A DNA stretch of 64,000 bases from an uncultured Flavobacteriaceae bacterium (GTDB lineage Bacteria > Bacteroidota > Bacteroidia > Flavobacteriales > Flavobacteriaceae), in NCBI GenBank assembly GCA_943789465.1, contig CALSUF010000001.1, positions 496,001 to 560,000 of the forward strand. Direction: 5' to 3'. A program made the translations under genes and the position numbers. Shown in pieces: positions 20,413-64,000 of this stretch (its first letter is position 1; each line of letters begins with the position of its first letter). The notes below the pieces were generated by a model. The model was not told the DNA's origin. It was given only the letters and a program-made list of their open reading frames with translations, and did no database searches.

Positions 20413-20485
20413 TGGCCCATGGTGTAACTGGCAACACGTTGGTTTTTGGTACCAAAGAGTCTAGGTTCGAGCCCTAGTGGGCCAA
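20413..20485 (+). tRNA. tRNA-Gln (TTG anticodon)
   Basis: Cloverleaf can be drawn in full: acceptor TGGCCCA/TGGGCCA, D arm GTGT/ACAC, anticodon stem TTGGT/ACCAA with loop TTTTGGT giving anticodon TTG, and T stem CTAGG/CCTAG with loop TTCGAGC. The discriminator is A and CCA is not encoded. It lies upstream of rimP-nusA-infB; in E. coli a tRNA gene (metY) also precedes this operon. Confidence 0.95.
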
Positions 20486-20504
20486 CTAAAACAAGGATAA
20501 ACAC

Positions 20505-52495: not shown

Positions 52496-53212
52496 ATGGA
52501 ATCAAAGAAAAATTTAAAAGCAGACGTTAGTAGAAATGGATCGATCTATTTTGCAGTCGGTTTAGCACTTATGCTGTTTTTAACATACAGCACTATAAAC
52601 TATAAAACTTATGACAAGTCATTAATTGATATTGGAAAGTTAGACTTAGACGCAGAACTCGATGAAGAAATTCCGTTAATCGACCAATTAACGCCACCAC
52701 CGCCACCACCGCCACCGCCAGCAGCACCTGAAGTGATTGAAATCGTTGAAGACGAAGAAGAAATTGAAGAAACAGTTATTGAATCTACAGAAACAGATCA
52801 AGACGAAGAAATTGAAGTAGAAGATATAGAAGTAGAAGAGGTTTATGAAGACGTAGAAGTCCCGTTTTCGGTGATTGAAAACGTACCAGAATATCCAGGC
52901 TGTGAAAAAGGCTCTAATACCGAAAAAAGAAAATGTATGTCCGCCAAAATCGCAAAATTTGTACAACGTAAGTTTAATACAGATTTAGCAGGAGACTTAG
53001 GTTTATCTGGAAGACAACGTATTAGTGTGATTTTCAAAATTGATAAGACTGGAAATGTAACTGGAGTTCGTTCTAGAGCACCACATCCAAGATTAGAGAA
53101 AGAAGCCGCACGCGTAATTAACATGCTTCCGAAAATGAAGCCAGGACGTCAACGTGGTAAAGCAGTGGTTGTTCCATACTCTTTACCTATAACATTTCAA
53201 GTCCAAGATTAA
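52496..53212 (+). CDS. TonB family energy-transducing protein, copy 1
   Basis: A 238-residue inner-membrane protein that couples proton motive force to outer-membrane transporters. One N-terminal helix (SIYFAVGLALMLFLTY) is followed by a nine-Pro run and an acidic stretch of Glu/Asp/Val/Ile (about 75-120). The C-terminal TonB domain has NVPEYPGCEKGS, KCMSAKIAKFVQRKFN, RISVIFKIDKTGNVT and MKPGRQRGKAVVVPYSLPITF. It ends with a terminator and is followed by a close second copy. Confidence 0.9.
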   Translation: MESKKNLKADVSRNGSIYFAVGLALMLFLTYSTINYKTYDKSLIDIGKLDLDAELDEEIPLIDQLTPPPPPPPPPAAPEVIEIVEDEEEIEETVIESTETDQDEEIEVEDIEVEEVYEDVEVPFSVIENVPEYPGCEKGSNTEKRKCMSAKIAKFVQRKFNTDLAGDLGLSGRQRISVIFKIDKTGNVTGVRSRAPHPRLEKEAARVINMLPKMKPGRQRGKAVVVPYSLPITFQVQD

Positions 53213-53239: not shown

Positions 53240-53265
53240 AATCCCGCGCCGCGGGATTTTTTTTT
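53240..53265 (+). terminator. Intrinsic terminator after tonB copy 1
   Basis: ATCCCGC (53241-53247), loop GCC, GCGGGAT (53251-53257), then a run of T. Located 28 bp after the stop of the first TonB gene. Confidence 0.88.
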
Positions 53266-53311
53266 GGTATGTTTTTTGTTGTGTAATTATAGAACCCCTA
53301 AAAATCATACA

Positions 53312-54058
53312 ATGAAATTTCCTCCAGATCCCTCACAATTTCGTTTACCAAAAAAAACTCCTAAAGCAGATGTCAGTCGAAATAGTTCGATCTATTTTGC
53401 AGTTGGCTTAGTTTTAATGTTATTTATTTCTTATCAATCGATTAATTACAAGTCGTATGATAAAACGGATATTGACATCGGCTCTTTAGATATTGAAAAA
53501 GAAGTTGAAGAAGAAATCCCAATTATTGACTTACTAAAGCCACCACCACCACCGCCACCACCGCCAGCTGCACCTGAGGTTATTGAAATTGTAGAAGACG
53601 AAGAAGAGGTGGAAGAAACAGTTATTGAATCCTCAGAAACTGATCAAGAAGAAGAAATCCAAATAGAAGAAGTTGAAGTAGAAGAAATTTATGAAGATGT
53701 TGAAGTGCCCTTTTCTGTAATTGAAAACGTACCAGAATATCCAGGCTGTGAAAAAGGCTCTAATACCGAAAAAAGAAAATGTATGTCCGCCAAAATCGCA
53801 AAATTTGTACAACGTAAGTTTAATACAGATTTGGCAGGTGATTTAGGCTTGACAGGAAAACAACGCATCAGTGTTATGTTCAAAATTGATAAAAATGGAA
53901 ATGTAACAAGTGTGCGTTCCAGAGCACCACATCCAAGATTAGAGAAAGAAGCAGCACGCGTTATCAATATGTTGCCGAAAATGAAGCCAGGACGTCAACG
54001 TGGCAAAGCAGTGGTTGTTCCTTATTCTTTACCTATTACTTTTTTAGTGCAAGAGTAA
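53312..54058 (+). CDS. TonB family energy-transducing protein, copy 2
   Basis: A 248-residue paralogue of the preceding gene with the same plan: an N-terminal extension (KFPPDPSQFRLPKKTPKAD), one helix (SIYFAVGLVLMLFISYQS), a Pro run, an acidic stretch and the same C-terminal domain. The ATG at 53312 is chosen as it follows the terminator at 53265; an upstream frame start at 53264 lies inside the T-run. Parts of the C-terminal half are identical to copy 1 at DNA level (for example 53720-53832 against 52874-52986). Confidence 0.9.
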   Translation: MKFPPDPSQFRLPKKTPKADVSRNSSIYFAVGLVLMLFISYQSINYKSYDKTDIDIGSLDIEKEVEEEIPIIDLLKPPPPPPPPPAAPEVIEIVEDEEEVEETVIESSETDQEEEIQIEEVEVEEIYEDVEVPFSVIENVPEYPGCEKGSNTEKRKCMSAKIAKFVQRKFNTDLAGDLGLTGKQRISVMFKIDKNGNVTSVRSRAPHPRLEKEAARVINMLPKMKPGRQRGKAVVVPYSLPITFLVQE

Positions 54059-56472: not shown

Positions 56473-56557
56473 AGAGAGGTGGCCGAGTGGCTTAAGGCGC
56501 ACGCTTGGAAAGCGTGTATACGGCAACGTATCGAGGGTTCGAATCCCTTCCTCTCTG
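56473..56557 (+). tRNA. tRNA-Ser (GGA anticodon)
   Basis: Acceptor AGAGAGG/CCTCTCT, anticodon stem CACGC/GCGTG with loop TTGGAAA giving GGA, a long variable arm (ATACG-GCAA-CGTAT) typical of class II tRNAs, T stem GAGGG/CCCTT with loop TTCGAAT, discriminator G. CCA is not encoded. It lies in the 339-bp gap between ansA and exbB, which otherwise holds only promoter-like sequence (TTTT...TATCTTTA at 56690-56697). Confidence 0.96.
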
Positions 56558-56744
56558 CAATTCCCTTTATATTAGCGACTTATCGTTTTTAAGCATAAGA
56601 TTATTACTTTCTTTTTGAAATTAGTGTCAAAATTCAATTAAAATTCCTCGAGTTTTATTGTTTTTATTTTGGTAATTACATTTTTTTCATATCTTTAACA
56701 TCTTATATAAATAATAATATTTTAATAAAATCAATAATAGAACA

Positions 56745-60747: not shown

Positions 60748-63700
60748 ATGAGCGCGACATTTCCTGAGTATAAAGGACTTAACTTACCAAACGTAGCAGA
60801 CGAAATGCTAAAGTTTTGGGAGGATCATGATATTTTTGACAAAAGCATAACTTCTAGAAACGGGAAACCCCCTTATGTTTTTTTTGAAGGGCCTCCATCT
60901 GCCAATGGATTGCCAGGAGTTCATCATGTTTTGGCACGGGCTATTAAAGACATTTTTCCGCGTTACAAAACCATGAAGGGATTTCAAGTAAACCGTAAAG
61001 CTGGTTGGGATACACACGGACTTCCAATCGAGCTAGGGGTCGAAAAAGAATTAGGAATTACCAAAGAAGACATCGGTAAAACCATTTCTGTGGAAGATTA
61101 CAATGCCGCTTGTAGAACCGCCGTAATGCGTTACACAGATATTTGGAATGATCTTACTCAAAAAATGGGGTATTGGGTCAATATGGACGACCCCTATGTG
61201 ACCTACGATCCAAAATATATGGAAAGTGTCTGGTGGTTGCTAAAACAGATTTATAACAAAAAACTTATATATAAAGGCTATACAATTCAACCCTATTCTC
61301 CAAAAGCGGGAACGGGTTTAAGTTCACACGAGTTGAATCAACCAGGGACGTACCAAGATGTTACAGACACCACAATTGTAGCCCAATTTAAAGCAAATGA
61401 AGCGTCACTCCCAGAATTTTTACAAAACCAAGGGCCTGTTTTATTTTTAGCTTGGACGACAACTCCATGGACATTACCTAGTAATACGGCCTTAACTGTA
61501 GGTCCAAAAATTGAATATGTACTCGTAAAGACCTATAATCAATACACTTTTGAAGCCACCAATGTAGTGGTCGCAAAGGCGTTGGTTGGCAAACAATTTA
61601 ATGGAAAATTTAAAGAAGTAAATAACTTAGAAGGTCTACAAGGCTATCAGTCTTCAAATAAAAACATTCCATTTTATGTGGTCAAATCGTTTATAGGTAA
61701 AGACCTTGTAGGAATCTCTTATGAGCAATTATTAAATTATGCCTTGCCAAACGACAACCCTCAAGATGCTTTTAGAATTATCTCTGGCGATTTTGTAACC
61801 ACTGAAGATGGAACAGGAATTGTACATACGGCTCCAACCTTTGGAGCGGATGATGCACTAGTAGCAAAACAAGCCAGCCCAGAAATCCCGCCATTATTGG
61901 TAAAAGATGCGGACGGCAATTTAGTGCCGCTTGTGGATTTACAAGGGCGCTTTAGACCAGAAGTTGCAGAGTTTGCAGGGCGTTTTGTGAAAAACGAATA
62001 CTATCCAGAAGGCGATGCACCAGAGAAATCTGTAGATGTAGAACTGGCCATCAAGTTAAAAACAGAAAACAAAGCATTTAAAGTTGAAAAATATAAGCAC
62101 AGTTATCCAAATTGTTGGAGAACAGATAAGCCTATTTTATACTACCCGTTAGACTCTTGGTTTATAAAAGTAACTGAAGTTAAAAAACGCATGTTCGATT
62201 TGAATCAAACAATCAACTGGAAACCCAAAAGTACTGGTGAAGGTCGTTTTGGAAATTGGTTAGCAAATGCAAACGATTGGAATTTATCTCGCTCACGTTA
62301 TTGGGGTATTCCACTTCCAATTTGGCGGACTGAAGACGGGAAAGAAGAAATCTGTATTGGTTCTGTCAAAGAATTGAAAGTAGAAATGCATAAAGCAGTT
62401 CAAGCTGGAGTTTTAGAAAAAGCCATTTTTGAAGATTTTGTAGTAGGAGATTATTCACTCGAAAATTATGCTAAAATTGATTTGCATAAAAATATTGTCG
62501 ATACCATAACATTAGTATCTCCAACAGGAAAACCAATGCATCGCGAAAGTGATTTGATAGATGTATGGTTTGATTCAGGAAGTATGCCTTATGCACAATG
62601 GCACTATCCATTTGAAAACAAAGAGCTTATTGATAACAATAAAGCCTTTCCAGCAGATTTTATTGCGGAAGGTGTCGATCAAACTCGGGGCTGGTTCTAT
62701 ACGCTTCACGCAATCGCTACTATGGTTTTTGATTCTGTGGCCTATAAAAATGTCGTTTCAAACGGATTAGTCTTGGACAAAAATGGACAAAAAATGTCCA
62801 AGCGTTTAGGCAATGCTACAGATCCTTTTGAAACCTTATCCACCTATGGAGCAGATGCAACTCGTTGGTATATGATTAGCAATGCCAATCCATGGGATAA
62901 CTTAAAATTTGATGTGGAAGGGATCGAAGAGGTCAAAAGAAAATTTTTCGGAACCTTATACAACACCTATTCTTTTTTCACTCTCTATGCAAATATTGAT
63001 AAATTTAGTTATGCAGAGGCCAATATTTCAAGTCAAGAACGTCCAGAAATTGACCGTTGGATTTTATCAGAATTAAATTCATTAACCGAAAAAGTAGATG
63101 CCTATTATGCGGACTATGAACCTACAAAAGCAGCCCGTATCATTTCTGAATTTACTCAAGAATATTTAAGCAACTGGTACGTTCGTCTCAGTAGAAGACG
63201 CTTCTGGAAAGGGGAGTATGAAACCGATAAAATATCAGCCTATCAAACCTTGTACACTTGTATGGTAACGATCGCAAAACTCGGAGCACCCATAGCCCCG
63301 TTTTTTATGGATCGTTTATACTTAGACTTGAATTCAGCTACAAATAAAGAAACATTTGAAAGTGTTCACTTAGCAGATTTTCCATCAGCAGATGTGACTC
63401 TAATTGATAAAAATCTAGAGCGTAAAATGGAGCAAGCACAAACAATTTCATCTTTAGTGTTATCGCTACGCGCAAAAGAAAAAATTAAAGTGCGTCAGCC
63501 TTTACAAAAAATCATGATTCCGGTGAGTTCTGATACTCAAAAAGAAGATATTTTAGCGATTGCAGACTTAGTGAAACACGAAGTCAATGTGAAAGAAATT
63601 GAGCTGTTAGAAGATGCATCCGATATTTTAGTGAAACAAATTAAGCCAAATTTTAAAGCCTTGGGACCTCGATTTGGAAAGGACATGAAGCTAATTGCCA

Positions 63701-64000
63701 ATGCTATTCAAAACCTGCAACCCGAAGACATCAAGCAAATCGAAGAAAAAGGGGAGTTAGGTATTGAAATTAATGGAAAAAGTATTAATTTGGAACGCAA
63801 TGATGTAGAGATTACTTCTCAAGATATAGAAGGATGGTTGGTCGCTAATCAAGGAGCTGTTACGGTTGCTTTGGATGTTACAATTTCAGAGACTCTAAAA
63901 GAGGAAGGAATTGCAAGAGAATTGGTCAATAGAATTCAAAACTTAAGAAAAGATTCTGGGTTTGAACTCACCGATCGAATAGAGGTTTATTTACAAGTTG
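60748..64000 (+). CDS. ileS: Isoleucyl-tRNA synthetase, 3' end cut by the window (IleRS2-like with altered HIGH motif)
   Basis: Class I synthetase that charges tRNA-Ile; 1084 residues are visible with no stop, so about the last 50-70 residues of the usual ~1140 lie outside. MSATFPEYKGLNLPNVADEMLKFW is the N-terminus (in part). The editing domain has TAPTFGADD, the catalytic half has GIPLPIWRTEDG and GVDQTRGWFYT, and KMSKRLGN is the second signature. The first signature reads ANGLPGVHHVL: residues 57-60 are G-V-H-H, where the class consensus is H-x-G-H. The other sequence features place it with the long eukaryote-like IleRS2 type. The start at 60748 gives the conserved N-terminus; ATG 60741 is in another frame. 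Confidence 0.97.
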   Translation, partial: MSATFPEYKGLNLPNVADEMLKFWEDHDIFDKSITSRNGKPPYVFFEGPPSANGLPGVHHVLARAIKDIFPRYKTMKGFQVNRKAGWDTHGLPIELGVEKELGITKEDIGKTISVEDYNAACRTAVMRYTDIWNDLTQKMGYWVNMDDPYVTYDPKYMESVWWLLKQIYNKKLIYKGYTIQPYSPKAGTGLSSHELNQPGTYQDVTDTTIVAQFKANEASLPEFLQNQGPVLFLAWTTTPWTLPSNTALTVGPKIEYVLVKTYNQYTFEATNVVVAKALVGKQFNGKFKEVNNLEGLQGYQSSNKNIPFYVVKSFIGKDLVGISYEQLLNYALPNDNPQDAFRIISGDFVTTEDGTGIVHTAPTFGADDALVAKQASPEIPPLLVKDADGNLVPLVDLQGRFRPEVAEFAGRFVKNEYYPEGDAPEKSVDVELAIKLKTENKAFKVEKYKHSYPNCWRTDKPILYYPLDSWFIKVTEVKKRMFDLNQTINWKPKSTGEGRFGNWLANANDWNLSRSRYWGIPLPIWRTEDGKEEICIGSVKELKVEMHKAVQAGVLEKAIFEDFVVGDYSLENYAKIDLHKNIVDTITLVSPTGKPMHRESDLIDVWFDSGSMPYAQWHYPFENKELIDNNKAFPADFIAEGVDQTRGWFYTLHAIATMVFDSVAYKNVVSNGLVLDKNGQKMSKRLGNATDPFETLSTYGADATRWYMISNANPWDNLKFDVEGIEEVKRKFFGTLYNTYSFFTLYANIDKFSYAEANISSQERPEIDRWILSELNSLTEKVDAYYADYEPTKAARIISEFTQEYLSNWYVRLSRRRFWKGEYETDKISAYQTLYTCMVTIAKLGAPIAPFFMDRLYLDLNSATNKETFESVHLADFPSADVTLIDKNLERKMEQAQTISSLVLSLRAKEKIKVRQPLQKIMIPVSSDTQKEDILAIADLVKHEVNVKEIELLEDASDILVKQIKPNFKALGPRFGKDMKLIANAIQNLQPEDIKQIEEKGELGIEINGKSINLERNDVEITSQDIEGWLVANQGAVTVALDVTISETLKEEGIARELVNRIQNLRKDSGFELTDRIEVYLQV

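Follow-up and report, generated by a model that had tools for sequence, protein, structure and literature searches.

The question raised by this locus is whether an isoleucyl-tRNA synthetase (IleRS) with a rearranged class I signature motif is a working housekeeping enzyme, and what the rearrangement says about mupirocin and the organism that carries it. The gene, ileS, starts at position 60748 on the forward strand of the window (the whole stretch of 64,000 nucleotides analysed, from an uncultured Flavobacteriaceae bacterium) and runs to position 64000, continuing beyond the window end as one open frame. In the parent genome the complete gene encodes 1,135 aa (L086:2749-6156), and the portion in the window is identical to the parent copy. 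The protein matched TIGR00392 over the full length of the profile (positions 5-858 of 861) with 988.5 bits, well over the curated cut-off of 621.4, which identifies it as an isoleucyl-tRNA synthetase.

Read in the frame of the ATG at 60748, window positions 60916-60930 are GGAGTTCATCATGTT and encode residues 57-61, GVHHV. The codons GGA GTT CAT CAT (60916-60927, forward strand) specify Gly57-Val58-His59-His60, so that G-V-H-H stands in place of H-x-G-H, with glycine at motif position 1 and histidine at position 3, as in the GXHH form (G or A at position 1, H at position 3). H-x-G-H was absent from the entire 1,135-aa protein, in which G-x-H-H occurred a single time, at residue 57. In a phmmer search against the PDB, GVHH aligned without gaps with HVGH of the Priestia megaterium type-2 enzyme (IleRS2) and with GVHH of its laboratory mutant 8c8w. 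A wider alignment placed GVHH in the HIGH column, under HIGH of Escherichia coli IleRS1, HMGH of Bacillus velezensis IleRS1, HAGH of Staphylococcus aureus MupA and GIHH of Acetoanaerobium, and revealed no true HIGH elsewhere. The earlier note, which had reported the swap together with an intact KMSKR, was correct on both observations; KMSKR, the second class I signature loop, lies at residues 682-686 (62791-62805, forward strand). Elsewhere in this genome, two class I synthetase frames that resemble ValRS and LeuRS by motif context kept HMGH and HVGH, both with KMSKS; among these synthetases the swap is therefore confined to IleRS. An AlphaFold2 model built from 20 close homologues (mean pLDDT 52, pTM 0.37, most of the catalytic core below 50) was too poor for active-site inspection.

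The gene product is, by its domains, signature residues, tree position and structural matches, an IleRS2, the subtype to which the earlier note had tied the motif. The best PDB matches were P. megaterium IleRS2 chains, first the mutant 8c8w (798 bits) and then the wild type 8c8u (792 bits), while IleRS1 of the same species reached 295-303 bits. The C-terminal DUF5915 domain was present and the zf-FPG_IleRS zinc finger absent. As controls, MupA carried DUF5915, and E. coli IleRS1 carried the zinc finger and lacked DUF5915; B. velezensis IleRS1 had neither at the threshold used, which makes the zinc finger alone a soft control. The IleRS1 signatures described in PMC4861432 (Tyr59, NKIL and SSL, E. 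coli numbering) were missing, their columns being occupied by S, A-R-A-I and T-L-H. Present instead was H-Y-P-F-E (residues 619-623; 62602-62616, forward strand), which the same source gives as an eukaryote-like/IleRS2 marker, and which is not strict, as MupA has HYPFD and a 0.5 Mb genome has NYPFN. In a 53-row tree from a quick maximum-likelihood method, the IleRS1 rows, of which there were only two, stood apart from MupA and Bacteroidota with SH-aLRT support of 99 and 100; long branches were flagged, MupA and E. coli among them.

Among named systems, the closest are IleRS2 enzymes with GXHH or AXHH, such as those of Deinococcus radiodurans (ALHH) and Streptomyces griseus (non-canonical), which likewise have positions 1 and 3 of HXGH exchanged in the same column. 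Around the motif, the mutant 8c8w and our IleRS have identical residues (ANGLPGVHH). The known GXHH/AXHH enzymes come from other organisms, and our IleRS reads KMSKR against KMSKS in that comparison set; the P. megaterium chain has 1,032 aa against 1,135. MupA, the plasmid-borne Staphylococcus IleRS2, shares the subtype, the DUF5915 C terminus and 37% identity with our protein, yet MupA has kept HAGH, and our gene is the only ileS found and lies on a 687 kb contig. IleRS1 of E. coli and B. velezensis has the same activity and class I core but differs in carrying HIGH or HMGH and NKIL, in lacking HYPFE and, in E. coli, in having a zinc finger. Assignment to an acquired resistance gene of the MupA/MupB type was rejected at 742 and 752 bits against a curated cut-off of 1900, and a PADLOC scan of the IleRS protein returned no family.

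The swap proved to be widespread. A protein search of the genome collection, with search peptides that excluded the motif, gave at least 591 confirmed loci, and among the best 80 examined (from Flavobacteriaceae, plus a few relatives with vaguer labels) all 80 had GVHH or GIHH, making sequencing error unlikely. At the DNA level, the relaxed pattern N-G-x-P-G-(xTx codon)-H-H matched 198/198 genomes drawn across the phylum (called Bacteroidota here after its named relatives), representing 103/103 genera, and 368/395 genomes of a class sample; the reversed pattern, as a control, had 0 matches in either sample. A stricter first pattern, which insisted on A-N-G and on an xTx codon ahead of the proline, for that reason matched only 35 of the 198 phylum genomes. 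A pattern match alone does not establish an IleRS: when eight extra pattern places were translated, seven fell in frames of 24-120 aa that do not resemble IleRS, and the eighth lay in the N-terminal part of a broken-off GIHH ileS. This fragment, by eye about 100 residues followed by unrelated sequence, is on contig 10 of genome G115 (L314, 5,580 bases), whose contig 1 bears an ileS of full length.

The pattern missed 27 class genomes, eight of them with completeness of 90% or more and contamination of 5% or less. A protein-level search of all 27 (E ≤ 1e-25) found no ileS in 20, and the other seven had only pieces outside the motif region. A looser family search of six of these 20 recovered nothing above the ileS cut-off, and the best pieces, the ones that were read, carried ValRS or LeuRS motifs. 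We saw no exception in these 27 genomes, though they do not count as support for the swap. In the class sample, G273 (3.3 Mb, rated 99% complete) had no ileS that we could find and its best pieces read as ValRS-like, probably reflecting an assembly gap.

Protein and family searches that were independent of the motif, taken unfiltered, yielded 239 loci with 231 distinct contexts, namely 179 GIHH, 51 GVHH and one GMHH; HXGH was not found in any of the 231, and three loci lacked the motif region. A wider tally reached 266 distinct contexts (210 GIHH, 55 GVHH, one GMHH; 11 loci without the region), but includes loci retrieved with the GXHH pattern (30 loci, L089-L118, and L235-L237) and loci from genomes chosen for pattern matches or misses, and keeps only H/G/A-x-G/H-H forms. 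Loci L001-L005, L086-L088, L281 and those from L311 onward are outside both tallies. Among the 395 class genomes, 80 were put through a family search at E ≤ 1e-100, which found a match in 77 and two matches in four of the 77; by their coordinates and profile positions these double matches fit pieces of one gene, once across two contigs. Two genomes had ileS split into two overlapping frames (G286 contig 1, L221, and G242 contig 60; 607 + 381 aa and 710 + 587 aa, respectively), which are broken genes or assembly errors.

Even very small genomes kept GIHH, one of 0.3 Mb from the same order and another of 0.5 Mb from the same class, both probably those of obligate symbionts given their size. Beyond the phylum, an IleRS of Acetoanaerobium (Clostridia), from a record filed as a plasmid, had GIHH, so the form is not restricted to Bacteroidota. 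Some match was present in 248 plasmid records, five of them at 60-80% identity (30 across the ranking were listed and five inspected). One record filed as a plasmid, NZ_CP072187.1 of Riemerella anatipestifer (L320, 104,567 bases), has a housekeeping-like GIHH ileS in the order ileS-traR-lspA, and may be a piece of chromosome rather than a plasmid.

Taken with what is known of GXHH enzymes, we are highly confident that this gene encodes a housekeeping IleRS2 in the GXHH form that is predicted to be active and to have a very high mupirocin Ki, its swap probably inherited from the ancestor of the phylum's IleRSs and not a recent adaptation. By analogy with its homologues the enzyme is very likely mupirocin-insensitive, and the organism, by extension from the enzyme motif, may be highly resistant. 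The susceptibility of whole cells to mupirocin depends on uptake and efflux too. In a survey by Brkic et al. (2023, PMC10485003), 86 of 379 IleRSs had G/AXHH, all of them IleRS2 and falling into two IleRS2 clades, and the variant raised the mupirocin Ki of IleRS2 roughly 200- to 800-fold with isoleucine activation retained. The same paper reports Ki values of 6.6 mM for D. radiodurans IleRS2 with its native ALHH and 8.1 µM as HVGH, and increases from 0.20 to 35 µM (Thermus thermophilus) and from 1.08 to 460 µM (P. megaterium) upon conversion of HVGH to GVHH; a Ki of 10 mM is given for S. griseus IleRS2 in PMC4861432. What the earlier note said of resistant GXHH enzymes in the literature is accurate by PMC10485003, with Ki values up to the millimolar range.

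By comparison with these homologues, our enzyme would be active with GVHH and would have a Ki of tens of micromolar to millimolar, a millimolar value not being guaranteed since the laboratory GVHH mutants reached only 35 and 460 µM (PMC10485003). The mechanism described in that paper for other IleRS2 would, if it extends to this one, place the tip of helix alpha1 differently than in IleRS1, so that the third-position histidine could take the catalytic role of the first without displacing the adenine. The same histidine, according to modelling (PMC10485003), would clash with mupirocin and prevent tight binding. Kinetic or MIC values for any Bacteroidota IleRS were not found in the portions of PMC10485003, PMC4861432, PMC10835994 and PMC9927545 drawn on here.

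On a different account, mupirocin-like antibiotics to which this bacterium is exposed selected the swap and maintain it to this day as a lineage-specific resistance adaptation. Such agents include the marine thiomarinols, mupirocin hybrids produced by Pseudoalteromonas (PMC3069032), and PMC10485003, in which the motif confers hyper-resistance on other IleRS2, proposes antibiotic selection for its origin. The distribution runs against this account: the swap is in all 198 phylum genomes, it persists in the 0.3 and 0.5 Mb genomes, and no relative with HXGH that could be the start of a recent gain appeared in the phylum among the loci read. Persistence of the swap consequently needs no present-day mupirocin, and we regard ongoing selection by such antibiotics as improbable; as a keeper of the motif it is disfavoured by the distribution, while an ancestral origin under antibiotic pressure is possible. 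Rather than being peculiar to this organism, the swap is probably an old trait of the lineage, and its distribution suggests that it was already in the ancestor of the Bacteroidota IleRSs and was then kept. Of the earlier note's interpretation, then, the motif, its place, the subtype and the literature stand, and the suggestion of a trait of this organism does not, as a swap in 198/198 phylum genomes tells nothing particular about this bacterium or its mupirocin exposure.

It is very improbable that the gene is instead a degenerate, inactive second IleRS alongside a normal one. This idea draws on the finding that IleRS1 loses its activity once GXHH is introduced (PMC10485003), but the protein is an IleRS2, and G57, H59, H60 and KMSK are invariant in 20 aligned relatives (mean column identity 84%). 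A search of the parent genome (2.1 Mb, 85% complete) at E ≤ 0.001 gave five matches, ileS itself and four pieces in the ValRS- and LeuRS-like frames, with no second ileS found at that threshold. Gene order argues against a spare copy as well, because ileS is followed by a DksA/TraR-like gene and lspA, and the order ileS-traR-lspA recurs in Riemerella; E. coli has ileS-lspA. That the real HIGH lies elsewhere, or that a register shift, frameshift or sequencing error created the motif, we refute, leaving it a negligible chance, in view of the gap-free alignment on either side of the motif, the whole-protein scan without H-x-G-H, and the conservation of the motif in relatives, with GXHH in 231/231 contexts.

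Several other features were seen in the window and just past its end. Directly 3' of ileS, beyond the window, the DksA/TraR-like gene (L086:6159-6539) scored 24.1 bits against a Pfam cut-off of 24.9, and its product has by eye a single cysteine, such that the C4 zinc finger looks degenerate. Within the window, two adjacent forward-strand genes (52496-53212 and 53264-54058) encode TonB_C proteins with 200 of 235 aligned columns identical and look like a tandem duplication. The only Rfam matches at gathering level in the window were tRNA-Gln (ttg; 20413-20486) and tRNA-Ser (gga; 56473-56558), both on the forward strand.

The GXHH form itself was already known, and what we add, modestly, is that the variant appears to be fixed across a phylum sample. 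A literature search combining 'mupirocin' with 'GXHH' returned nothing beyond PMC10485003, whose main text contains neither 'Bacteroid' nor 'Flavobacter' by term search, although its figures and supplements may well include Bacteroidota. Among papers found for mupirocin or IleRS2 together with Flavobacterium, Bacteroides or Bacteroidetes, none reported a motif common to the phylum in its title or in the opening of its abstract.

Why would the motif be kept so uniformly? One reading, to which we give an even chance, is that GXHH is a phylum-wide locked-in state, gained once before the radiation of the Bacteroidota and without HXGH reversion in our sample even at 0.3-0.5 Mb, since HXHH and GXGH intermediates would be poor enzymes. 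In the genetic code, an exchange between CAY and GGN takes two base changes per position, four in total. Half-swapped intermediates would either miss the catalytic histidine or carry one histidine extra, and such a fitness valley would account for the unseen reversions, although this ratchet is a hypothesis and one reversion was inferred in Deinococcus-Thermus (PMC10485003).

This IleRS adds to the cases in which an essential enzyme carries a rearranged form of a catalytic signature that was supposed to be invariant, and the distribution of its motif offers a test case for drug selection against an evolutionary ratchet as the keeper of such a change. It predicts insensitivity to mupirocin at the target level for Bacteroidota generally, and ileS hits tabulated as mupirocin resistance genes, for example in Ornithobacterium (PMC10835994), probably represent the intrinsic housekeeping enzyme and not an acquired gene. 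If the locked-in state is real, mupirocin insensitivity would be an intrinsic by-product of the biology of the whole phylum rather than an adaptation maintained by the drug.
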